A DNA stretch of 31,121 bases from a virus: positions 1 through 31,121 of the IMG/VR virus record IMGVR_UViG_3300009593_003454; one strand, 5' to 3'. How positions within the stretch are numbered: the stretch's first letter is position 1; each line of letters opens with the position of its first letter. Below are positions 1,222 to 31,087 of this stretch, in pieces. A program made the translations under genes and the position numbers. The notes below the pieces were generated by a model that made no database searches, was not told the origin of the DNA, and was given only the letters and a program-made list of their open reading frames with translations.

Positions 1222-2871
1222 TCATCTAGAACGAAACTCTAAAATCCCTTTTAGTCTAAACATCTTCTTTTCTTTGTACTCGGGATTTTTGATCATGTCG
1301 TTAGTTTGGGCAGGCATTACCCCTTTTTTATGTGATATAGTGATATGGGCTTGACCAGAATCTTGTCGTTTCAATCCTTGAATACTAACAAGTAAAGCAT
1401 CTATTTCTCTATTTGCAAGATACATGTTTGCTTGTATTGAATATTTTCTACCAATTAAACTGTCTAAAACTCCTGCAATTTGTTCTGTTGGTTGATATGC
1501 TATTGTGACATGATCTGATTCAATTTCATCATATGCGGCTAATTTCTCTACCTTTTCTTTACTACTAGGATCCAAAGTTACTGCATAATACCCATTTCTA
1601 TCTTCAACAAAGAAATCTTCTTTAATTCCATATTTTTCTTTGACTTTTCTAACCAGCGTACCTCTGTTGTTTATCTTCTCTGTTACTGCTAATTCAAGCA
1701 TATATTCAAGTGCTTCTCCAATTGCTCTTCCCTTGAATCCTTCTCTCATTAAATCACGACCATTTATACCCAACTCTTTTAAATTCGTAGGTATTTTCTC
1801 TCTCTTCAATCTATCAATCGTGTCCATAATACTTGGACCACCCCATGATTTAGAATAAGCATCCATATTGAACAGGTCTTCTTTAGTTTTGTTTTGAATA
1901 TATTTGATTGCGAACCAATCATTCTCAAACTTTCTGCGGTTCATTGCAAACTCAATAACTGATCTTGCAGATTGAGCATCAGCATTTGATGTTCTCATAA
2001 CTTGCTTTAAAACAGTATCAATTTTATACTCATAAGCCCGATTGATTATTGCTAAAAATGCAGGAAATGCTTTCTTATCAAGAGCATTAACCATTCTATG
2101 AATCTCTATTTCATTCTTTGCTTTTGGGAATATTCTCTCCATTATTCCCGTTTGATGCAGAAGTTCAACACCCGTTGATGGTGTCTCTGACTTTTCAAAT
2201 AGTTTTCTGAATTCTTCTTGAAATCGTTCTGCGGATACAGTCTTGATTGTGTCTACATTCTTCTTAATTTCTTTCATAGTTTCTGGTTCTATTGTGAACC
2301 CAAACCGTGATGCAAACTGTACTGCTCGTAACATCCTCAAAGGATCATCTTCAAATGCTTTTGGATTGATTACACTAATCTGTTTGTTGTCTATATCAAA
2401 CTGTCCTTTTCCCTTGATGTCATGCATTTCTCCAGTTTCAACATCTTTAGCAATAGCATTCATCCAGAAATCTCTGCGTAATTGATCCTGTTCTAATGAT
2501 ATATTCTTACCGAGTTTGATTTCAAAATCTTTATGCCCAGATCCTGTACTCTGAACATCTACTCTTGGAACTGAAATGTCTAAGGGTTCGCCTGTTTGAC
2601 CTGTTGGTTGGAATTTGAGTACACCGAATGATTTACCTACTGCATCAACCTTACCATGCTTTGATAGTAAAGTTTGCAATTCGTCAGTTTCGATACCTGT
2701 TATCAGAATATCTAAATCTTTGGAGACTTTACCGATAAGTTCATCACGTACTGCACCACCAATTTGATAGACCTTACCGCCATTAGATTTGAGTTCTTTT
2801 CTGAGGGAAGTGCTTAATGCAGTATTGATTTGTTGTGATGATTCATTAAAAAAAGTAGAGAATTTAAACAT
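1222..2871 (-). CDS. tRNA CCA-adding enzyme-like nucleotidyltransferase fused to a 2H phosphoesterase domain
   Basis: 549 aa. Residues 33-60 hold the class II polymerase-beta-type nucleotidyltransferase signature (GGAVRD at 38-43, DLDILI at 52-57 with two catalytic Asp). RRDFWMNAIA at 132-141 and DDPLRMLRAVQFASRFGF at 175-192 match the conserved CCA-adding/poly(A) polymerase head and neck motifs. I see no HD domain of the E. coli Cca type. The C-terminal ~135 residues instead carry two H-x-T motifs, HVTIAY (454) and HITISH (509), the hallmark of 2H phosphoesterases (LigT / 2'-5' RNA ligase-like, including the phage anti-CBASS protein Acb1). The N-terminus MFKFSTFFNE resembles the T4 capsid-targeting sequence shared by the upstream genes, so the enzyme may be packaged and injected. 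Substrate is not known. Confidence 0.85.
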   Translation of the reverse strand: MFKFSTFFNESSQQINTALSTSLRKELKSNGGKVYQIGGAVRDELIGKVSKDLDILITGIETDELQTLLSKHGKVDAVGKSFGVLKFQPTGQTGEPLDISVPRVDVQSTGSGHKDFEIKLGKNISLEQDQLRRDFWMNAIAKDVETGEMHDIKGKGQFDIDNKQISVINPKAFEDDPLRMLRAVQFASRFGFTIEPETMKEIKKNVDTIKTVSAERFQEEFRKLFEKSETPSTGVELLHQTGIMERIFPKAKNEIEIHRMVNALDKKAFPAFLAIINRAYEYKIDTVLKQVMRTSNADAQSARSVIEFAMNRRKFENDWFAIKYIQNKTKEDLFNMDAYSKSWGGPSIMDTIDRLKREKIPTNLKELGINGRDLMREGFKGRAIGEALEYMLELAVTEKINNRGTLVRKVKEKYGIKEDFFVEDRNGYYAVTLDPSSKEKVEKLAAYDEIESDHVTIAYQPTEQIAGVLDSLIGRKYSIQANMYLANREIDALLVSIQGLKRQDSGQAHITISHKKGVMPAQTNDMIKNPEYKEKKMFRLKGILEFRSR

Positions 2872-9321: not shown

Positions 9322-9416
9322 TGGCTCTGCGGGAAGGATTCGAACCTCCATACACCCCTCTTACAAGATGCAACTAGCAAACAACTAGCCGTGTCTACCG
9401 ATTTCACCACCGCAGA
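9322..9416 (-). tRNA. Type II tRNA with GUU anticodon and encoded CCA
   Basis: A 95-base cloverleaf can be drawn: 7-bp acceptor (TCTGCGG/CCGCAGA), discriminator G73 and encoded CCA; a Leu-type D arm (GTG, AAATCGGTAGA, CAC); anticodon stem GCTAG/CTAGT with loop TTGTTTG, giving anticodon GUU (Asn); a 23-base variable region; and T arm GGAGG-TTCGAAT-CCTTC. The long variable arm and D loop look like tRNA-Leu, but the anticodon and G73 fit Asn, and base 37 is U instead of a purine. It starts 14 bases after an AsnRS/AsnA-like gene. It could be a recoding tRNA, a decayed tRNA-Leu or a non-standard tRNA-Asn. Confidence 0.75.
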
Positions 9417-9430
9417 GTCAATCGAACAAT

Positions 9431-10309
9431 TTACATCAGTCCTGCCTTTTGCATACCACTTATTAATCTTGTGATACCAATACCTCCGCCAAAACGAGGT
9501 TTAAAATCGTGTTTCAGGAACTCATCAAGTTCTGCTAATACTCGTTCTTCACCAAACAATTCATATAATAAACTAGCATATTCTCCATCAGATATAGTAT
9601 GAAACTGTTCTCTCATTTCATCAACATCGGATGCTCTTTCTGCACTACCTATAGTTTCCATTCCACCAACGATTACATCACATTTATTTGCAATAGGTTT
9701 TCCTGTTGCATCTGGTGTATCTGATACTTTCATATTCCAAAATGGTGAGGTATGGTATGGAAAACGTGTGAGAAAAAATACATCTCCATATTCTTTGTAC
9801 ATATCCATTTCGTGTTTTGCATCAAGAGTGTTATCTGGTGCAGTATATTTTGCAACCATTCCCATATAACTACCGCCAGGAAAATTAGTTTCTGTCATTG
9901 GTGCCCTACCGTGATCACATTTAAATCCTAAATGTGTAAGCAATTCATCTTCCATTTTCAATAGATCATTAAAATCTCCTGGTGCTTCAAATTCAAACAT
10001 TGGAAAGATCAATTCGTGTCTACCTTCTATAGGATTCTTTTCTTCACGATAACTTGTACTTAGACAAAAACAACCTGCAATATCTGGTCGAGTCAATAGT
10101 TCGTATTCAAGCCACATTTGTCCTGTTTGTGGTAGTGGCCAAATCTTTCCTCCATACTCATATGTTTTTACTGTAGTGGGATCTTCACAAGCGGCAAGAA
10201 TCGATAAACGATTCTGAGTATGAACTTCTACAAAATTTTTGGAAAGGAAATATTCTCTGAGGGATTGTGTTACTGTGGTGAAATCATGGGGTGATATCAA
10301 AGATGTCAT
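9431..10309 (-). CDS. AsnRS/AspRS-like class II catalytic core (asparagine synthetase A or aminoacyl-tRNA synthetase paralogue)
   Basis: 292 aa. Class II motif 2 is visible (STSYREEKNPIEGRHELIFP, followed by MFEFE) and motif 3 (GGGIGITRLISGM) near the C-terminus with the ATP-binding Arg. The sequence is closest to the Asp/Asn synthetase group but lacks the N-terminal anticodon-binding OB domain. Free-standing cores of about this length include the archaeal asparagine synthetase that makes Asn from Asp, ammonia and ATP. The neighbouring tRNA with a GUU anticodon leaves a tRNA role open. Start ATG 10309 has AAGGAG at good spacing. Substrate undecided. Confidence 0.75.
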   Translation of the reverse strand: MTSLISPHDFTTVTQSLREYFLSKNFVEVHTQNRLSILAACEDPTTVKTYEYGGKIWPLPQTGQMWLEYELLTRPDIAGCFCLSTSYREEKNPIEGRHELIFPMFEFEAPGDFNDLLKMEDELLTHLGFKCDHGRAPMTETNFPGGSYMGMVAKYTAPDNTLDAKHEMDMYKEYGDVFFLTRFPYHTSPFWNMKVSDTPDATGKPIANKCDVIVGGMETIGSAERASDVDEMREQFHTISDGEYASLLYELFGEERVLAELDEFLKHDFKPRFGGGIGITRLISGMQKAGLM

Positions 10310-11198: not shown

Positions 11199-12419
11199 TT
11201 ATGCAACTTCTTTTAAATCGATTGTACCTAATTTACATGGTTGTACTGGATTCGTCCATCTAACATTACGGGTTTTGACTTCAGAATCCAAAACTTTCTT
11301 AATTGCTTTTCTTGTTTCATTCAACGGATATCTATTTCCAGAACGATTCATACCAGTATTAACAAGCCAAACATTAGAACCAATGTGATCAATCAAATTC
11401 ATCAACATATCACTATATGTTTTTACAGGTAGTGGCATGAATGGACTACCATAACAGGGAGAATATACTTTTTGAATCTCGGTTACTCCATCTTCTGTAC
11501 CAGGCATTTTACTTGTATATCCTGTCTCAAATAACTTTCTAATAGTCTCACCTTCAATCTTACTAATACATGGCATTGAACCAGTTGCATCTAATGATAG
11601 AAAAAATATGTTTTTAGGATGATGAAATAATGATCTCTGTGTTATCTGACCTTTTACACATCTTACAGGATAACTTGCTCTTGCATTTGGTTCGCCCTTA
11701 TTTTCTTCAATCAATACTCCTTGTTGTCTTGCTTCACTCATTGCTTCAAAGATTGTAGGTTGTGTTTCGGGTTCAAGACCATCTGTTTTTGCATAACATC
11801 CTGTTTCAATATTAGTCAATCCATGCTCATCCCATGCAATTTCATCATCACCAATTAAATGATATTCTGGGTCTGCACTTAACGTAGTTTTACCAGTACC
11901 ACTTAATCCAAACATTAATGCAGTTTCATATTCATACTGAAATGCTGAACAATGCATTGGTAATATGTTTTGTTGTGGAAGTTCATATCCTGTAATAGTA
12001 AATACTCCCTTCTTAATCTCTCCGAGAAAACTCGTACCACAAATTAAAACTATTTTTTTATCTAAATGAATGTATATTCTAGGTTTAAGACCTACTTTCA
12101 TATTGTGATATATGTTCCAGTCACCTGTCATTTTTTGATTTGGTTTAAGTCTAGTTTGACCAAACATATTACCAACAAATCGATGGTGGTCTTCACTTGT
12201 AGTTGCGACACAAAAATCTATTCCACATGTACGAAATATTCCTTTGTGATCATAATATTCTGAAACTAATTCTTCATACAAAACATCAAAATCAGACTCC
12301 TTGCCAACCTGACAATCTTTTGTACGTACATGATCTATTTTTACTGCATTGTCTCCAAAGTAAAATTTACCTTTTGGACTTCTGCCTGTTGGAAATGTTT
12401 TTAAGTTTAAGTTGTTCAT
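11199..12419 (-). CDS. pckA: ATP-dependent phosphoenolpyruvate carboxykinase, compact form
   Basis: 406 aa against about 530 in bacterial PckA. The substrate Arg motif TGRSPK (11-16) lies almost at the N-terminus, so about 55-60 leading residues are missing; about 70 C-terminal residues also seem absent. Catalytic motifs remain: GEIKKGVF (133-140), HCSAF (156-160), P-loop GLSGTGKTT (171-179), IGDDE (189-193), GCYAKT, NARASYP, and GYTSKMPGTE. It converts oxaloacetate plus ATP to PEP and CO2, the entry to gluconeogenesis. ATGA overlap with the OMP decarboxylase gene places it in the nucleotide-synthesis operon. The intact frame suggests a functional, trimmed enzyme. Confidence 0.92.
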   Translation of the reverse strand: MNNLNLKTFPTGRSPKGKFYFGDNAVKIDHVRTKDCQVGKESDFDVLYEELVSEYYDHKGIFRTCGIDFCVATTSEDHHRFVGNMFGQTRLKPNQKMTGDWNIYHNMKVGLKPRIYIHLDKKIVLICGTSFLGEIKKGVFTITGYELPQQNILPMHCSAFQYEYETALMFGLSGTGKTTLSADPEYHLIGDDEIAWDEHGLTNIETGCYAKTDGLEPETQPTIFEAMSEARQQGVLIEENKGEPNARASYPVRCVKGQITQRSLFHHPKNIFFLSLDATGSMPCISKIEGETIRKLFETGYTSKMPGTEDGVTEIQKVYSPCYGSPFMPLPVKTYSDMLMNLIDHIGSNVWLVNTGMNRSGNRYPLNETRKAIKKVLDSEVKTRNVRWTNPVQPCKLGTIDLKEVA

Positions 12420-15789: not shown

Positions 15790-16875
15790 CTAATTATTAT
15801 GTAAATTTGGAATATTATGATAACGATGTGCTTTGAAGCAACTGTTATGTGATCCTGTAATAAACTTATTTAGAGGTTCAGGGTATTCTGCAAATTCAGG
15901 AATAACATATTCCCATGTAAGCATACCTTCTTCATTAACTTCAAAAATTCTCCCAAATGCACTCTCACAAATAGAATAACTTTTATTCCAGAGTTTTTCT
16001 ACACTCCCCATATAGGGAGAAAAGAATGCCGCAGGCATATCGTCTTTATATTCACGAACAAGTTCTTTTGTTTTTGGATCATACTCTACAATACGAGAAT
16101 GATGTATTGAATTGGGACGAATGTTTCCATTATCGAAACATAATACAGTCCCTTCTTCTGTCCATGTTGGATCATGTTGTTGGGCAACAAGAGGATATTC
16201 AATTTCCCATTCTATATTTTTTGTTTCTTTATTAACTGCAATAATACCACTTGTTGTTCTTAGACTCAATAAAACTAATCCATCTCCTGTATCATGTACT
16301 CCATTAACCATAGGCCAATGATCTGTATTGAAACATTCATGAGTTTTGTATATGTGAGGAAAGATATGTTCCCAGACACACCACTCCCAAACAACTTCTC
16401 CTTTACGATTTACTTCTTTTATTCTATCAGACATAACTGGTCCAATAGGGGAAACAAATGCTTCTTCTGCAACTGCATAAAGTAAATTTCCATTGTCTAA
16501 CCATTGAGCATCATGGTGATGATAAATGTCTTCGTGTTCCCAAACAATATCACCATTAGGTCTTGCTTCCATGAAATGTCCGCCATGCCAGATATCCCAT
16601 GCAGGATAAAGTTCTGCTGACTTTTTATGACTACCATTATATCCAAGATTTCCATATGGAGATACATGCATATTACTCAACAATACTGCATCTCTTCCTG
16701 GTCGAACAGGCATATTCCATTCATGAACAGTCTCACCGCTAATATCAATTAGTTTTACTAAACCATTTCCAGTCTGTGGAGCATATAAAGTATAGCACCC
16801 AGAAGACCAATCTTGATCCCAATATATTAATCCTGTTTCTCTACGTTCTACTGTTGGTTTATACCATATTTGCAT
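15790..16875 (-). CDS. Arylsulfotransferase-like beta-propeller protein
   Basis: About 361 aa from ATG 16875 (MQIWYKPTVERRETG), which overlaps the permease stop as TAATG and has GGAG upstream. Repeated W/D-type blades are visible (VKLIDISGETVHEW, ARPNGDIVWEHED, IKEVNRKGEVVWEW, FEVNEEGMLTWEY), and HHHDAQWLDNGNLLY with WPMVNGVHDTGDGLVLLS follow the arylsulfotransferase (PF14269/PF05935) pattern with conserved His. No signal peptide is visible. Placement directly after an ABC permease gene suggests work on the imported compound, but its substrate is unknown. An unusual gene for a phage. Confidence 0.7.
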   Translation of the reverse strand: MQIWYKPTVERRETGLIYWDQDWSSGCYTLYAPQTGNGLVKLIDISGETVHEWNMPVRPGRDAVLLSNMHVSPYGNLGYNGSHKKSAELYPAWDIWHGGHFMEARPNGDIVWEHEDIYHHHDAQWLDNGNLLYAVAEEAFVSPIGPVMSDRIKEVNRKGEVVWEWCVWEHIFPHIYKTHECFNTDHWPMVNGVHDTGDGLVLLSLRTTSGIIAVNKETKNIEWEIEYPLVAQQHDPTWTEEGTVLCFDNGNIRPNSIHHSRIVEYDPKTKELVREYKDDMPAAFFSPYMGSVEKLWNKSYSICESAFGRIFEVNEEGMLTWEYVIPEFAEYPEPLNKFITGSHNSCFKAHRYHNIPNLHNN

Positions 16876-17636
16876 TATGAAATCTCCGATTCGTGCCATT
16901 TGTGCATTAAAGAATAACCTATACTTGATACAATTGTAAAGAATGCAAATCCTAATAGAGTTGCAGTCAATATTAATGCCATGACCAATGGAGTTTCTAA
17001 ATCTGCTTGAGCATATATGATCATAACACCTAATCCACCACTTTCACTTCCAGAACCGATAATAAATTCTCCAACAATCGCACCAATGACAGATAGACCT
17101 GCTGATATTCTCATACCTGCAATAATGTTAGGTATAGCGGCAGGAAATCTCAACTTATAAAACTGTGTCAGTTTTGATGCTTTGTGCATATCAAATAATT
17201 CAACTAAGTTTATTGATGTTGATTTAAGACCGAGTAATGTATTATTGATTATGGGAAATAATGATATAATAAGACTAATTAATATTACAGATCGTTCTTC
17301 AAAACCAAACCATAGAACAATCAATGGTGCAACTGCAACAACTGGTACAGTTTGCAATAAAATAGCATAGGGATATAAACTACGTTCTAGTATCTTCGAC
17401 AAACTCATTGTTGTTGCTACTAAAATACCTATAACAATAGCAAGAATATATCCTGTAAATGCTTCTCTGAGAGTAGTGGTAGCACCTTCTATAACCATGT
17501 CTATATCTGTCACAAATGCTTCTGCAACTAACATTGGACCTGGTAATAGAAATGCCATATCATATATTCTAGCACCTATTGACCAAATTATCAAGAATAA
17601 GACAAGAACTAATATTGGAGGTAAAATATTTTTCAT
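16875..17636 (-). CDS. ABC transporter permease (SsuC/TauC/ThiX-like)
   Basis: About 253 aa from ATG 17636 (MKNILPPILVLV), chosen for the near-perfect GTAGGAGGTG site just upstream. It has about six membrane segments and the EAA-type loop that contacts the ATPase (ELFDMHKASKLTQFYKLRFP, then AAIPNIIAGMR). This is the BPD_transp_1 permease of nitrate/sulfonate/taurine/pyrimidine-precursor importers. It would form the inner-membrane channel with the ATPase at 18008-18724 and the NMT1-like binding protein at 18731-19663. The gene overlaps its neighbours at both ends (ATGA, TAATG). Confidence 0.9.
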   Translation of the reverse strand: MKNILPPILVLVLFLIIWSIGARIYDMAFLLPGPMLVAEAFVTDIDMVIEGATTTLREAFTGYILAIVIGILVATTMSLSKILERSLYPYAILLQTVPVVAVAPLIVLWFGFEERSVILISLIISLFPIINNTLLGLKSTSINLVELFDMHKASKLTQFYKLRFPAAIPNIIAGMRISAGLSVIGAIVGEFIIGSGSESGGLGVMIIYAQADLETPLVMALILTATLLGFAFFTIVSSIGYSLMHKWHESEIS

Positions 17637-18730: not shown

Positions 18731-19663
18731 TTACTTGTAACAACCTTTCTTAAATGACAAGTCATAAGAATCTGCTGGATCGAAATCTGCAGGAAGTTGA
18801 TCAATTTCTTTTAACTGTTCTGCAAGTTCAGCCCATCGTGTAGGATCTTGACATCCAATTTTACTCCAGTCTTTTGGTAGAAAGTCCGCCTTCATCAACT
18901 CAATAGCATTCATGTGAATTTCAGCATTCACCTTTTTGCTCTTTGAAAGAATGAAGTCCATAGTTGGCTTAGGATCTACTAAAGACTTATGAAACGAAAC
19001 AGACAAACGATCAACTACTGCCTGAACTAATTCAGGATTCTCTTTGATCATCTTATCACTTGTAAACAATACACTATATGGTCTGTAACCAAGACTTTCT
19101 AATGTAATCTGCTCATTAGCAATACCTTTTGCATCAAGTCTTGCTGGTAAAAAGAGGGAATATCCTTGTTGAAATTGTGTTGGAGTTCTTGCGAACAATC
19201 CAAGATCACCAGTCAACGGAAACTCTTTAGCAGTAACACCATACTTGTGCTTAACCCACTTCCAATATGTAATTCCCATTACAACTGCAAATGGTCTACC
19301 TTCTAAATCATTAACAGTTTTAATACCTTGATTGGGATGAAATACGAGAGTGTATGGTACATGATTGAGACTTACAAAGATTGCTTTAAGACCAGCACCT
19401 TTTGAGTTTGCTTTCATAACACTATCTGATCCGTTAAGACCAAACTCTACTTGACCAGAAGCAACCGCAGTTGTTGTTCTGACCTTAGGACCACCTGCTT
19501 TAATTGTGATCTTTAAATCGTCATGATGAGCATTATCAAACTGGGCCTGCCAGAATCCGCTCTGATTTCCTTGAGGAAACCAGTCCATGAGCAATGTAAC
19601 TTCTTTTGCGAAACCACTTGTTGCAAACATAAATGCAACAAGACTTAATATAATTTTTCTCAT
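18731..19663 (-). CDS. NMT1/THI5-type ABC solute-binding protein
   Basis: 310 aa with a signal peptide (MRKIILSLVAFMFATSGFA). The mature start EVTLLMDWFPQGNQSGFW matches NMT1/THI5-like (ThiY-type) binding proteins, whose DW-x-PN-x-nH region contacts a pyrimidine; GQVEFGLNGSDSVMKA and later YRPYSVLFTSDKMIKENPEL also fit. Members carry thiamine pyrimidine precursors, riboflavin or related ring compounds. With the following ATPase and permease it makes a complete importer. Note the EYFPQGN-type change compared with the classical WxPNxxH, so the ligand may differ. Start ATG 19663. Confidence 0.85.
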   Translation of the reverse strand: MRKIILSLVAFMFATSGFAKEVTLLMDWFPQGNQSGFWQAQFDNAHHDDLKITIKAGGPKVRTTTAVASGQVEFGLNGSDSVMKANSKGAGLKAIFVSLNHVPYTLVFHPNQGIKTVNDLEGRPFAVVMGITYWKWVKHKYGVTAKEFPLTGDLGLFARTPTQFQQGYSLFLPARLDAKGIANEQITLESLGYRPYSVLFTSDKMIKENPELVQAVVDRLSVSFHKSLVDPKPTMDFILSKSKKVNAEIHMNAIELMKADFLPKDWSKIGCQDPTRWAELAEQLKEIDQLPADFDPADSYDLSFKKGCYK

Positions 19664-19684
19664 TTTAATATCTCCGATATATTA

Positions 19685-20755
19685 TTAGTCTTTAACTGGA
19701 AACTGTGAACTTACGCCTTTAACAAAAAACTGCATTGTTTCAAGTTCAGGTCGTTTGATCACTCCTGCTTCGATTTTTGTACCATCTTGTTTTGTAACAC
19801 CTTCTGAAAAGGGATACCAAGTGTCAAGATCATCATTGATCCAATTCATCTTAACTGTTTCAACTCTATTGACAACTTCACCAGGTACATTTTTACCCCA
19901 TGGAGACAGACCAACACAATTCTTCTCAATTCCCCAATTCCATCTTTGGTTCATTTTGAGTTTCCCATCTTTTAATTGGTCCATAATCTCTTTATACAAT
20001 ACGTTCCAGTTAAACATCATACCTGTGATATAACTGTCTGGTCCGTATTCTCCCATTGGTGCATCATTACCCATACTCCATACTCCATCTAATTTTTGTG
20101 CAAGAGTAACAACTGATGGGGAATCAGTTGTGGTAAAGAGAATGTCATTTCCTTCATCAGCAAGAACCCTAGCGGCTTCCATATCTTTAGGTGGATCGAA
20201 CCAAGAGTTGATCCATATAATTTCTACTTCAATGTCAGGATTGACTGATTGGGCACCAAGTGTGAGTGCATTTATGTTACGAATAATTTCTGGAATAGGA
20301 TGTGAACCAACAACTCCAATCTTATTCGTTTTTGTCATCATACCAGCCGCAATACCAGTAAGATATCGTGCTTGAAATGAGTGACAGACATAATTATCAA
20401 AATTACTATCATTACCTTTATAACCAGTGGCGTGCATAAAAATAGTTTTCTTATGTTTTTGTGCGGCCTTTTCCATAGCATTCATAAAACCAAATGATGT
20501 ACCGAAAACAATATCATGTTTTCTTGCGAGTTTTTTAAATACTCTACCACTATCTGCTTCTGAAACAGATTCAACACCTTCAACTTTATAACCATGCTTT
20601 TCTAAAGATTTAAATCCTTGAGAATGTCTCATTGACCAGCCACCATCATTTGATGGCCCCACAAGAACATAACCTACTGATAAATCTTTTGCATTAATAA
20701 TAGTAGTAAATGTCATACTCAGGATGAGTACAACAATCCCTTTTAACTTGAACAT
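19685..20755 (-). CDS. BMP-family (PnrA/Med-like) ABC solute-binding protein
   Basis: 356 aa with a signal peptide (MFKLKGIVVLILSMTFTTIINA). The mature part VGYVLVGPSNDGGWSMRHSQG, with its GWS/T motif, and DIVFGTSFGFMNAMEKAA, NDNYVCHSFQARYLTGIAAG-like and IGVVGSHPIPEIIRNINA segments are those of the BMP family (PF02608), which binds purine nucleosides in characterised members. The matching BMP permeases are not in the window, so it probably works with host transporter parts or as an orphan. GGAAGGAG precedes ATG 20755; a terminator hairpin lies just upstream. Confidence 0.9.
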   Translation of the reverse strand: MFKLKGIVVLILSMTFTTIINAKDLSVGYVLVGPSNDGGWSMRHSQGFKSLEKHGYKVEGVESVSEADSGRVFKKLARKHDIVFGTSFGFMNAMEKAAQKHKKTIFMHATGYKGNDSNFDNYVCHSFQARYLTGIAAGMMTKTNKIGVVGSHPIPEIIRNINALTLGAQSVNPDIEVEIIWINSWFDPPKDMEAARVLADEGNDILFTTTDSPSVVTLAQKLDGVWSMGNDAPMGEYGPDSYITGMMFNWNVLYKEIMDQLKDGKLKMNQRWNWGIEKNCVGLSPWGKNVPGEVVNRVETVKMNWINDDLDTWYPFSEGVTKQDGTKIEAGVIKRPELETMQFFVKGVSSQFPVKD

Positions 20756-28729: not shown

Positions 28730-29094
28730 TACATCCAACTCGGTGAGTTTTGGGTTTCATCTCCTCTGTCTATCATAAAAGAGGTCTTGCATCCACAACT
28801 AGATTTTGCTTTAGGATTATTGAAAACAAATCCTCTATTCATTAAATCATCATTCCAATCAAGTATTAATCCTTTAATATAAAGCAAACTCTTTTTATCG
28901 CATAATATTCCAACACCAAAAGATTCAAAAAACTTATCAAATTTGGTTGGTCTTGAATCTAAGTCAAGAACATAAGTAAAACCCGAACAACCGCCTGCTT
29001 TAATACCAACACGCAATGAAACATCTTCTGTAACACCTTGTTCGGATAATACTTCTCTTATTTTATTAGCACTTTTTTCAGTTAATTCTATCAC
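28729..29094 (-). CDS. A-type Fe-S carrier (IscA/ErpA-like) 1
   Basis: 121 aa. Cys36 (AGGCSGFTY) and the SCGC pair (C100, C102) give the three Fe-S ligands. The rest (EKSANKIREVLSEQ, ILDWNDDLMNRGFVFNNP) follows the HesB/IscA fold. It acts after IscU in cluster delivery. It overlaps iscU by 4 bases and its own stop overlaps the second carrier. A short C-terminal extension (RGDETQNSPSWM) is unusual for IscA. Confidence 0.88.
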   Translation of the reverse strand: MIELTEKSANKIREVLSEQGVTEDVSLRVGIKAGGCSGFTYVLDLDSRPTKFDKFFESFGVGILCDKKSLLYIKGLILDWNDDLMNRGFVFNNPKAKSSCGCKTSFMIDRGDETQNSPSWM

Positions 29095-29474
29095 GCCGAT
29101 TGTTTTGCTTTATAATCCTTTATAGCCGCCTTAATTGCATCTTCTGCTAAAACAGAACAATGAATTTTTACTGGTGGTAATGATAATTGCTCTACTATTT
29201 CTGTATTTTGAACGGTCATTGCATCATCAATGCTCATATCTTTTACCCATTCAGTTGCTAAAGAAGATGCCGCTATTGCAGATCCACATCCAAATGTTTT
29301 GAATTTAGCATCTACAATTTTATCACCTTCACCAACTTTAATTTGCAATTTCATTACATCACCACACTCAGGCGCTCCCACAAGACCAGTGCCAATGTTA
29401 GTATCAGTGGAATCAAAACTACCCACATTCCGTGGTTTTTCATAGTGGTCTATTACCTCTTTTGAATATGCCAT
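29091..29474 (-). CDS. iscU: Fe-S cluster scaffold IscU
   Basis: 127 aa, the normal length. The three cluster Cys sit at the canonical positions: C37 (APECGD), C63 (FGCGSA) and C106 (KIHCSV), with Asp39. The LPPVK motif (99-103) recognised by the HscA chaperone is intact. No cysteine desulfurase or ferredoxin gene is in the window, so the phage scaffold must use host IscS or SufS. It heads the iscU-iscA-iscA operon, after a strong stem-loop. Clients in the window could be the host or phage Fe-S enzymes. Confidence 0.93.
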   Translation of the reverse strand: MAYSKEVIDHYEKPRNVGSFDSTDTNIGTGLVGAPECGDVMKLQIKVGEGDKIVDAKFKTFGCGSAIAASSLATEWVKDMSIDDAMTVQNTEIVEQLSLPPVKIHCSVLAEDAIKAAIKDYKAKQSA

Positions 29475-29541: not shown

Positions 29542-29769
29542 TTACTTCTTCTCTACAAACTCATAAAGTTCAGAAGCCTTTTTCTTAATATCATCTATAG
29601 AATAAGTTTCTGGTTGAAGCCTTTTCCATAACTCCATATTAGCATCACCAGTTTCTTTTGCGTGTTCCCATGCCTGAAACATCATATTTTCAGACCTAGC
29701 AACCTGATCAGCAAGATAACCTTGAGCCATTTCAAGAATTTTAAATCTAAGTTCGTATGGATTTGACAT
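29542..29769 (-). CDS. 75-aa conserved phage-type protein
   Basis: 75 aa from ATG 29769 (MSNPYELRFKILEMAQGYLA), fixed by GAGGAG five bases upstream. An open frame extends further upstream into the tmRNA 3' region but has no ribosome binding site. It is all-helical, and the MSNPYELRF start recalls a small conserved protein of marine T4-like phages. It follows the tmRNA coding piece, so it may be read from the same promoter. Function unknown. Confidence 0.65.
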   Translation of the reverse strand: MSNPYELRFKILEMAQGYLADQVARSENMMFQAWEHAKETGDANMELWKRLQPETYSIDDIKKKASELYEFVEKK

Positions 29770-29852
29770 AATTTCTCCTCGTGTGTGTGTTATTGTGTGT
29801 GTTAAGTTAATGGGTTGATTCTGTTCCAAGGCCAACCCAAACCCGTCAGCAA

Positions 29853-29900
29853 TTAAGCGGCAAGAGCCACTTGTGCTGGAGTATAATCAGCATTATTTGC
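29853..29900 (-). other. tmRNA tag peptide frame
   Basis: Reads ANNADYTPAQVALAA then TAA. The GCA resume codon follows AATC, as in known tmRNAs, and the ALAA end is a protease degron (ClpXP type). It lies inside the tmRNA coding piece. Confidence 0.9.
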
Positions 29901-29991
29901 GATTAAGTTTAAATGACATTTTACATCTGTCAAGATGGTCTCCTCTGCATAATCACATCCAATCGAATTCCTAAAACACCCCCAACACGGG

Positions 29992-30081
29992 TCACAATAA
30001 TATTGCTTCAAGTAAAAAATAACCACCAATCACGCAAGTTAAAAGGAGAACCCACATGATCATATTTTGTGTATCGTTCAT
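29992..30081 (-). CDS. 29-aa membrane peptide between the tmRNA pieces
   Basis: ATG 30081 with AGGAG four bases upstream, partly overlapping the tmRNA CCA end. The product has a short polar start (MNDTQNMI) and one membrane segment (MWVLLLTCVIGGYFLLEAIL). It lies wholly in the segment normally cut out of permuted tmRNA transcripts. It may be a real micropeptide or a chance ORF; the good ribosome binding site and clean hydrophobic helix favour the first. Confidence 0.45.
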   Translation of the reverse strand: MNDTQNMIMWVLLLTCVIGGYFLLEAILL

Positions 30082-30153
30082 GTGACTCCTGGTGGAGGTG
30101 GGCGGAATCGAACCGCCGTCTTAAATGCTACTCTACAGTATCATCAACTAAAA

Positions 30154-30525
30154 CTATTTAGATAAATCTTGTGTAACATCCTTTATTTTGTTAATTTGTT
30201 TTGTAATTATTTCTTCACGATTTGGCCAATATATGTAGTCTTTTTCTGGGTTTTTCATTAAATTATACAAGACAGGTAGAACTAATTTTTCTACTTCCTG
30301 CATGTCTTTCACATATTTTTCTTCAAGATAATCTTTTTTATAACCAATTTCTTTTATAGCAGAATCTATTTTCTTTTCTAAATTTGAAAAGTCTTGTGAT
30401 TCCGCTTGTTTTGTTACTTGTTCAATTTTTTGATCTAAGTCTGTGGTTTTTGATTTATATTCTTCATCATCTACTGCCGAAAAACCAAAATCAAAATTAG
30501 CATATTCTTCAGGTATTTGTGCCAT
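30154..30525 (-). CDS. 123-aa coiled-coil hypothetical protein
   Basis: About 123 aa from ATG 30525 (MAQIPEEYANFDFGFSAVDD); a longer frame starts 36 bases upstream. The middle is a long charged helix (KTTDLDQKIEQVTKQAESQD, KKIDSAIKEIGYKKDYLEEK), probably coiled coil, and the end is polar. It overlaps the resolvase gene by 17 bases and precedes the tmRNA. No family recognised. Confidence 0.6.
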   Translation of the reverse strand: MAQIPEEYANFDFGFSAVDDEEYKSKTTDLDQKIEQVTKQAESQDFSNLEKKIDSAIKEIGYKKDYLEEKYVKDMQEVEKLVLPVLYNLMKNPEKDYIYWPNREEIITKQINKIKDVTQDLSK

Positions 30526-31087
30526 GTTCGTATCCGTATTTGCAAACCCAATAAGAGTCAACTATGTCTGAAACAGGATTTTTGTCGTGTTTGGTTTGAA
30601 ATTCTTCTGAGAGATTTCGTCTTGTATCAGACATGAAAGAATCGTGCATTAATTCTTTGTTTGCGTTTCCCTTACCAGATGCGTATTTTTTGATTACTGT
30701 TGGAGGTACCATCTGATAACGTATCCCCCAATCTGTTAAAAAGTATTTTAATATTGCCATATTCTCACCAATGGTAAAAACTCTTCCAGTGGCGGCGTAG
30801 GCGTAATCTTCTATAAAAACTGTTTTAGGTCTATTGTTAAATTTTACAATGCTATTTACTGTCCAATCTGCTAACTGACAATATCTTTGCATCTCTGTAT
30901 TATATTTAGGATATTTTGAAACTCGTATATTAGGAGCAGAATGCCATTTTTCTAATTGTTTATCTGTTTGTACTATACAATAATGCTTAACATTTTCGTA
31001 TTTCCATTCACCTAAACATTCTGTTATTGCTGGACTTGTTAATGAATAATCTATTCCTACATGTAATTCAGGTGTCCCAGTTGTCAT
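30509..31087 (-). CDS. RuvC-like Holliday junction resolvase
   Basis: 192 aa. The acidic residues of the RNase H-like fold are in place: Asp13 (VGIDYSLTSPA), Glu93 (VFIEDYAYAA), and Asp174/Asp177 (PVSDIVDSYW). The region VPPTVIKKYASGKGNANKE matches RuvC-type enzymes of T4-like marine phages (P-x(2)-VK-x(4)-G-x-[GA]-x-K). It would resolve branched DNA before packaging. GAGGACG precedes ATG 31087, which overlaps the previous gene by 20 bases. Confidence 0.8.
   Translation of the reverse strand: MTTGTPELHVGIDYSLTSPAITECLGEWKYENVKHYCIVQTDKQLEKWHSAPNIRVSKYPKYNTEMQRYCQLADWTVNSIVKFNNRPKTVFIEDYAYAATGRVFTIGENMAILKYFLTDWGIRYQMVPPTVIKKYASGKGNANKELMHDSFMSDTRRNLSEEFQTKHDKNPVSDIVDSYWVCKYGYEHGTNT

Follow-up and report, generated by a model that had tools for sequence, protein, structure and literature searches.

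The occurrence of two-piece tmRNAs in marine phages was reported along with the phage Melnitz, in a study where 53 of 133 unique phage tmRNA structures are of the two-piece form (PMC9004378). The 2025 tmRNA database holds 79 phage sequences (PMC11915505). Phage-borne permuted tmRNAs with their own tag are found in the Methylophilales phage Melnitz (MZ577097) and in the Pelagibacter phages Mosig (MT647606) and HTVC008M (NC_020484), which are marine T4-like phages (PMC9004378). The locus reported here is like them in this respect. It lies in a marine phage whose virus record comprises 31,121 bases; the whole record was analyzed and is called the window below. Like the window, Melnitz has a long spacer between the two tmRNA pieces, with a Shine-Dalgarno sequence and an unannotated reading frame through the spacer; unlike the ORF of the window, the Melnitz frame is non-membrane and continues into the coding piece. 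The Melnitz tmRNA scores 106.7 bits with the alphaproteobacterial model RF01849 and has an adjacent glutamine riboswitch. Neither applies to the window, where a glutamine riboswitch was looked for next to the tmRNA and none was found. No spacer gene is described in the accessible part of PMC9004378. A literature search, for which subscription papers were mostly out of reach, found no published description of a gene in a tmRNA spacer.

Type I toxin peptides and small protease modulators are examples of small hydrophobic membrane peptides in bacteria and phages. The peptide predicted from the spacer of the window has in common with such peptides, as generally known, a length of about 30 residues, one hydrophobic helix and a ribosome-binding site held in RNA structure. 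It differs from them in showing no sequence relation (no Pfam and no phage match) and in being encoded within a tmRNA precursor. Judged from sequence, the tmRNA adds one more example to a type of RNA already published, and the nested peptide gene, which has good sequence support, is the new part.

Features of the tmRNA locus

A summary of the locus is shown in Table 1. ARAGORN called a permuted tmRNA at c29762-30182 with the tag ANNADYTPAQVALAA and a stop codon. RF04321 (tmRNA_permuted), whose model holds tRNA-domain pairs only (PMC11915505), matched 29853-30151 on the minus strand over the full model (1-213) with an E-value of 4.7e-16 and 88.9 bits, against a gathering threshold of 47. The acceptor piece with its CCA precedes the coding piece, which is the order of a permuted gene. 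A sequence-only reading of this DNA had proposed a phage-encoded, circularly permuted tmRNA in two pieces with the acceptor piece in front, and both predictions support that form. The limits of the pieces are predicted ones: the 5' limit of the acceptor piece is the start of the RF04321 match, with the ARAGORN start at 30182, and the 3' end of the coding piece is approximate, the beta_tmRNA model ending at 29803 and ARAGORN at 29762.

Table 1. Features of the permuted tmRNA locus and its neighbors in the window
Feature	Position	Strand	Basis or remarks
NifU/IscU-like Fe-S scaffold protein, syntenic neighbor	29091..29474	-	phrog_8429; synteny
Conserved downstream 75-aa ORF (MSNPYELRFK...), syntenic neighbor	29542..29769	-	Synteny
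tmRNA coding piece: acceptor 5' strand, D-loop, tag frame, downstream part	29803..29983	-	Starts GGGGGUG at 29983
Tag reading frame ANNADYTPAQVALAA and stop	29853..29900	-	ARAGORN and anatomy
Spacer between the tmRNA pieces, 106 nt	29984..30089	-	Ends pair, GGAGUCACA with UGUGACCC, lengthening the acceptor stem
Micro-ORF MNDTQNMIMWVLLLTCVIGGYFLLEAILL and stop, 29 aa, single predicted transmembrane helix	29992..30081	-	ORF, selection, recurrence
Shine-Dalgarno-like GGAG	30086..30089	-	Directly after CCA, 4 nt ahead of ATG; largely base-paired in the predicted fold of the precursor
tmRNA acceptor piece: T-arm, acceptor 3' strand, encoded CCA	30090..30151	-	RF04321 start 30151, CCA end 30090
Conserved upstream 123-aa ORF, syntenic neighbor	30154..30525	-	Synteny
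RuvC-like Holliday junction resolvase, syntenic neighbor	30509..31087	-	phrog_159, E 6.7e-25; synteny

The 7-bp acceptor stem with a G3-U70 pair that the same reading had described is present: GGGGGUG/CACCUCC pairs at 7 of 7 positions, G3-U70 among them, and together with the CCA these are the sequence features of alanine identity. G3-U70 is kept in 160 of 163 unique spacer-defined candidates, which were extracted by our own finder from fetched loci, are nearly all viral and include a few tRNA-array artefacts. The other acceptor pairs vary on both strands in these candidates (GGGGGTG/CACCTCC, GGGGATG/CATCTCC, GGGGCTG/CAGCTCC, GGGACGG/CCGTTCC and GGGGCCA/TGGCTCC). The 5-pair outer helix of RF04321 is partly unpaired in the window. 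The degradation tag is the one previously read; it starts with alanine and ends in a hydrophobic tail of the -LAA type, as is characteristic of tmRNA tags, and an alanine-ended tag frame is retained in the relatives. A nucleotide search of known phages with the tmRNA region as query gave no match, and promoter and terminator scans stayed close to chance level. Apparent tRNAs nested in the spacers of L278 and L445 were rejected as tRNA arrays mispaired by the finder. The record of HTVC008M (NC_020484) holds an unannotated permuted tmRNA at 145161-145370 with the tag ANFNEYALAA.

The reading frame in the spacer

The spacer opens with GGAG and has an ATG at its ninth base, and the MNDTQNMIMWVLLLTCVIGGYFLLEAILL frame, overlooked in the sequence-only reading, occupies most of its 106 nt. 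A spanning frame was defined as an ATG frame covering at least 60% of the spacer, with its stop inside the spacer or at most 12 nt past its end. Such a frame was found in 41 of 118 unique viral spacers of 75-130 nt, and in 40 of the 41 the encoded product is a hydrophobic helix. When this set, the only one for which the shuffle null was computed, was dinucleotide-shuffled, the means were 11.5 spanning frames and 0.8 hydrophobic ones (maximum 4 in 100 rounds). Because a search pattern with an obligatory ATG had supplied part of the 118 spacers, the unbiased subset from ORF-independent scans is given separately: a terminated spanning ORF is present in 31 of 97 long viral spacers, and all 31 are hydrophobic and predicted to be transmembrane. 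A search with a peptide pattern returned 7 loci, 5 of them on contigs already known for such a spacer and one (L510) on the contig of L039. The remaining locus, L511, is an added member with the peptide MNDTSNIVMWCLILACIIGGYYILSAILM within a tmRNA that carries the tag ANNNDYTPAQMALAA.

The ORF is not universal among the relatives. Its terminated form is absent from the short-spacer relatives L050, L054, L066 and L076 and is thus dispensable in some lineages. The permuted tmRNAs of HTVC008M and Mosig are compact, and many other viral spacers of like length are structured and have no spanning ORF. No stand-alone homologues of the peptide were found by tblastn in phages, nor was there a match of the peptide to Pfam.

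An ORF of this type is missing from all 46 bacterial permuted-tmRNA spacers, in a sample that is mostly of the alpha type, the window being nearest to the beta model. A search for CCA followed by a Shine-Dalgarno sequence and ATG across 84,980 bacterial and archaeal species gave 3 places, of which only L193 lies in a permuted tmRNA; it was rejected as a bacterial case, as the viral contig L130 has an identical spacer. L192 and L194, the remaining places, are not tmRNA. In 398 Pseudomonadota genomes the pattern of the viral contigs had one match, whose sequence is not tmRNA-like. The beta-type bacterial control, taken by the order of G280, yielded just one permuted tmRNA above the cut-off. As far as sampled, the spacer membrane ORF is phage-associated.

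Other contents were noticed in viral spacers. L306, L310 and L373 share a conserved non-membrane frame, M..WD.YFPPLNLWNYS..WQW, with changes biased to third codon positions; it has no stop in the spacer and continues into the tmRNA coding piece. In Melnitz (L465, MZ577097) an unannotated frame led by a Shine-Dalgarno sequence, MFKWLSKTRLVVITRDYFRERNRKADAKIPKYLSGTRSVYDGGELGSTGRNRKV, at 46096-46260 starts within the spacer of the tmRNA and finishes inside the coding piece. The spacer of L261 has a frame, MKYNCTAQCPNCFFRFNWTKGYGLTKHKCVFD..., whose cysteines and histidine are placed as in a small zinc-binding peptide, in a single example. The spacers of L222, L223, L256, L285 and L301 are structured, with a T-arm-like motif of the GGTTCGAATCC type between long paired ends, and these motifs drew no tRNA call from ARAGORN or Rfam.

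Selection on the spacer frame

In the spacer frame, the window and L016 differ with a dS of 1.77 and a dN of 0.18. Pooled over pairs from different families (11 listed pairs, one of which has a one-residue length difference and was compared ungapped), and with the stem positions left unmasked, pN/pS is 0.38 in frame with a synonymous excess at p = 2e-8, against 1.26 and 1.43 in the two alternative frames. Differences at codon positions 1, 2 and 3 number 43, 27 and 76 in the pooled pairs. Two pairs, L281/L289 and L004/L023, are without constraint, so the pooled ratio conceals variation. With stem positions included in the test, it is still unlikely that base pairing alone produced the codon-position pattern. 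On the evidence of these substitutions, the spacer ORF is under frame-specific purifying selection at the protein level.

The terminal stem of the spacer

The two ends of the spacer pair in nearly all spacers, coding and non-coding alike. In the coding set the mean duplex energy was -10.2 kcal/mol for the spacers' own ends and only -5.6 kcal/mol once 5' and 3' ends had been swapped between spacers; the corresponding values for the ORF-less set were -13.1 and -5.9 kcal/mol, and the permutation p was about 2e-4 for each set. In these duplex predictions the terminal stem covaries between families. The ribosome-binding site lies within the stem and is mostly paired in predicted precursors. Since the ends are paired with or without an ORF, and the ribosome-binding site is inside the stem, the stem probably serves tmRNA maturation first, and the occlusion of translation would be either a consequence of this or a selected trait. 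With the Shine-Dalgarno sequence largely paired, there could be little or no translation of the spacer ORF.

Genome context

The window carries PhoH-like, RuvC-like, NifU-like and other phage-type genes. The NifU/IscU-like gene was used as a handle for finding relatives. The gene order RuvC-like, 123-aa ORF, tmRNA, 75-aa ORF, IscU-like is kept fully or partly in L002, L016, L028, L030, L033, L034 and L044. Its recurrence in independent viral contigs argues against a chimeric assembly, so that the segment is unlikely to be misjoined host DNA, a prospect the sequence-only reading had raised, and the tmRNA stands as phage-encoded. A PHROGs search of the 75-aa and 123-aa ORFs gave no match for either.

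Elsewhere in the window a tRNA called as Asn (anticodon GTT; 95 nt, 9322-9416, minus strand) has a long, class-II-like variable arm. It adjoins a class II tRNA-synthetase-like gene (PF00152, 292 aa, 9431-10309, minus strand), an odd pair; L043 likewise has a tRNA-Asn (GTT), of 97 nt. A phage-encoded protein of the CCA-adding enzyme / poly(A) polymerase family (PF01743, PF12627) at 1222-2871 (minus strand) is of interest alongside a phage tmRNA and tRNA. Metabolic-type genes are present at 11199-12419, 15790-16899 and 18731-20755 (minus strand), the set comprising PEPCK (PF01293), an arylsulfotransferase-like protein (PF05935), and NMT1/THI5-like and PnrA-like ABC substrate-binding proteins.

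Proposed function of the locus

The tmRNA and the ORF in its spacer, which recurs at the same site in many environmental phages and under purifying selection, are read here with good confidence as a single phage locus that yields two products: a two-piece tmRNA of permuted form, equipped with a tag of its own, and a 29-residue, single-helix membrane peptide made from the spacer. In a single precursor transcript the two ends of the spacer would pair on folding and extend the acceptor stem, and the extended stem would serve end processing and mask the ribosome-binding site at once. The precursor would most likely be cut into the two tmRNA pieces, and translation of the peptide may be weak or regulated, with either the uncut precursor or the released spacer as its template. 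The least certain steps are the action of the tmRNA in infected cells, where it would rescue stalled ribosomes and tag nascent chains, and that of the peptide, which would be a takeover factor in the host membrane, with a membrane protease or the integrity of the membrane as examples of what it might affect. The single helix of the peptide suggests a membrane role, for which membrane-protease modulation, a holin-like or toxin-like effect and superinfection exclusion are candidates. The roles proposed in the sequence-only reading, rescue during mRNA decay and a phage-chosen degron, are reasonable proposals, and similar ones had already been made (PMC9004378).

A wider proposal, on which we lean slightly to doubt, is that phages employ the spacer within the precursor of a permuted tmRNA as a regulated cargo site, in which maturation of the rescue RNA and expression of a nested micropeptide share a transcript and a stem, as a dual-function RNA that would couple translation quality control to membrane takeover. 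The same slot holds other, non-membrane frames in related phages (L306, L310 and L373; Melnitz).

Alternative explanations

The sequence-only reading derived the tmRNA from an alphaproteobacterial lineage; SAR11 is an example of a host that could have supplied it. Alpha-type permuted tmRNAs do occur in marine phages, as the 106.7 bits of Melnitz on RF01849 and the alpha-like T-loop of the unannotated HTVC008M tmRNA indicate, and permutation is not specific to Alphaproteobacteria (PMC11915505, PMC9004378). On the window tmRNA, however, the covariance search with RF01849 that had been suggested as a check gave 21.7 bits, below the gathering threshold of 50. The beta model RF01850 scored far higher and best among the clade models, at 60.9 bits, itself below its threshold of 84, and the cyanobacterial model RF01851 reached 35.1 bits with a threshold of 70. 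The T-loop, TTCGATT, is of a type common to the window and the betaproteobacterial permuted tmRNA and is non-alpha, against GGCGGTA or GGCAGTA in 42 of 46 bacterial permuted tmRNAs, a sample mostly of the alpha type; the tag ANNADYTPAQVALAA is unlike ANDERFALAA of the sole beta-like bacterial example (L319). An alphaproteobacterial origin is disfavoured by these comparisons and is considered improbable, and the tmRNA is placed nearest to the beta model, with no closer assignment.

The locus might also be an ordinary phage permuted tmRNA with a non-coding spacer, the ORF being a chance product of an AU-rich hairpin. The many structured viral spacers of similar length without a spanning ORF, and end pairing that is common to coding and non-coding spacers, are in keeping with this. 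It is nevertheless very improbable, as each of the 31 terminated spanning ORFs is hydrophobic, a kind of ORF of which shuffling the 118-spacer set yields about 0.8, and the synonymous excess is gone in the other frames. Least probable among the readings is the converse, in which selection acts on the spacer ORF and the surrounding tmRNA is decaying, or is only a carrier or a decoy that, for example, titrates SmpB. A tmRNA-like decoy is known in phage DS6A (PMC4131195, PMC11915505), and the partly unpaired outer helix in the window would fit one; against it, the acceptor stem covaries with G3-U70 kept almost throughout the candidates, and the relatives keep an alanine-ended tag frame, which a decoy does not need.

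Implications

If the two-product reading is true, the spacer of two-piece tmRNAs, usually seen as discarded RNA, would be a coding site in phages, which would give a possible reason for phages to retain the permuted form. Small membrane proteins that ordinary gene calling overlooks would be uncovered in this way. It would then become testable whether phages keep their tmRNAs because of ribosome rescue, because of the nested peptide or because of the two together.
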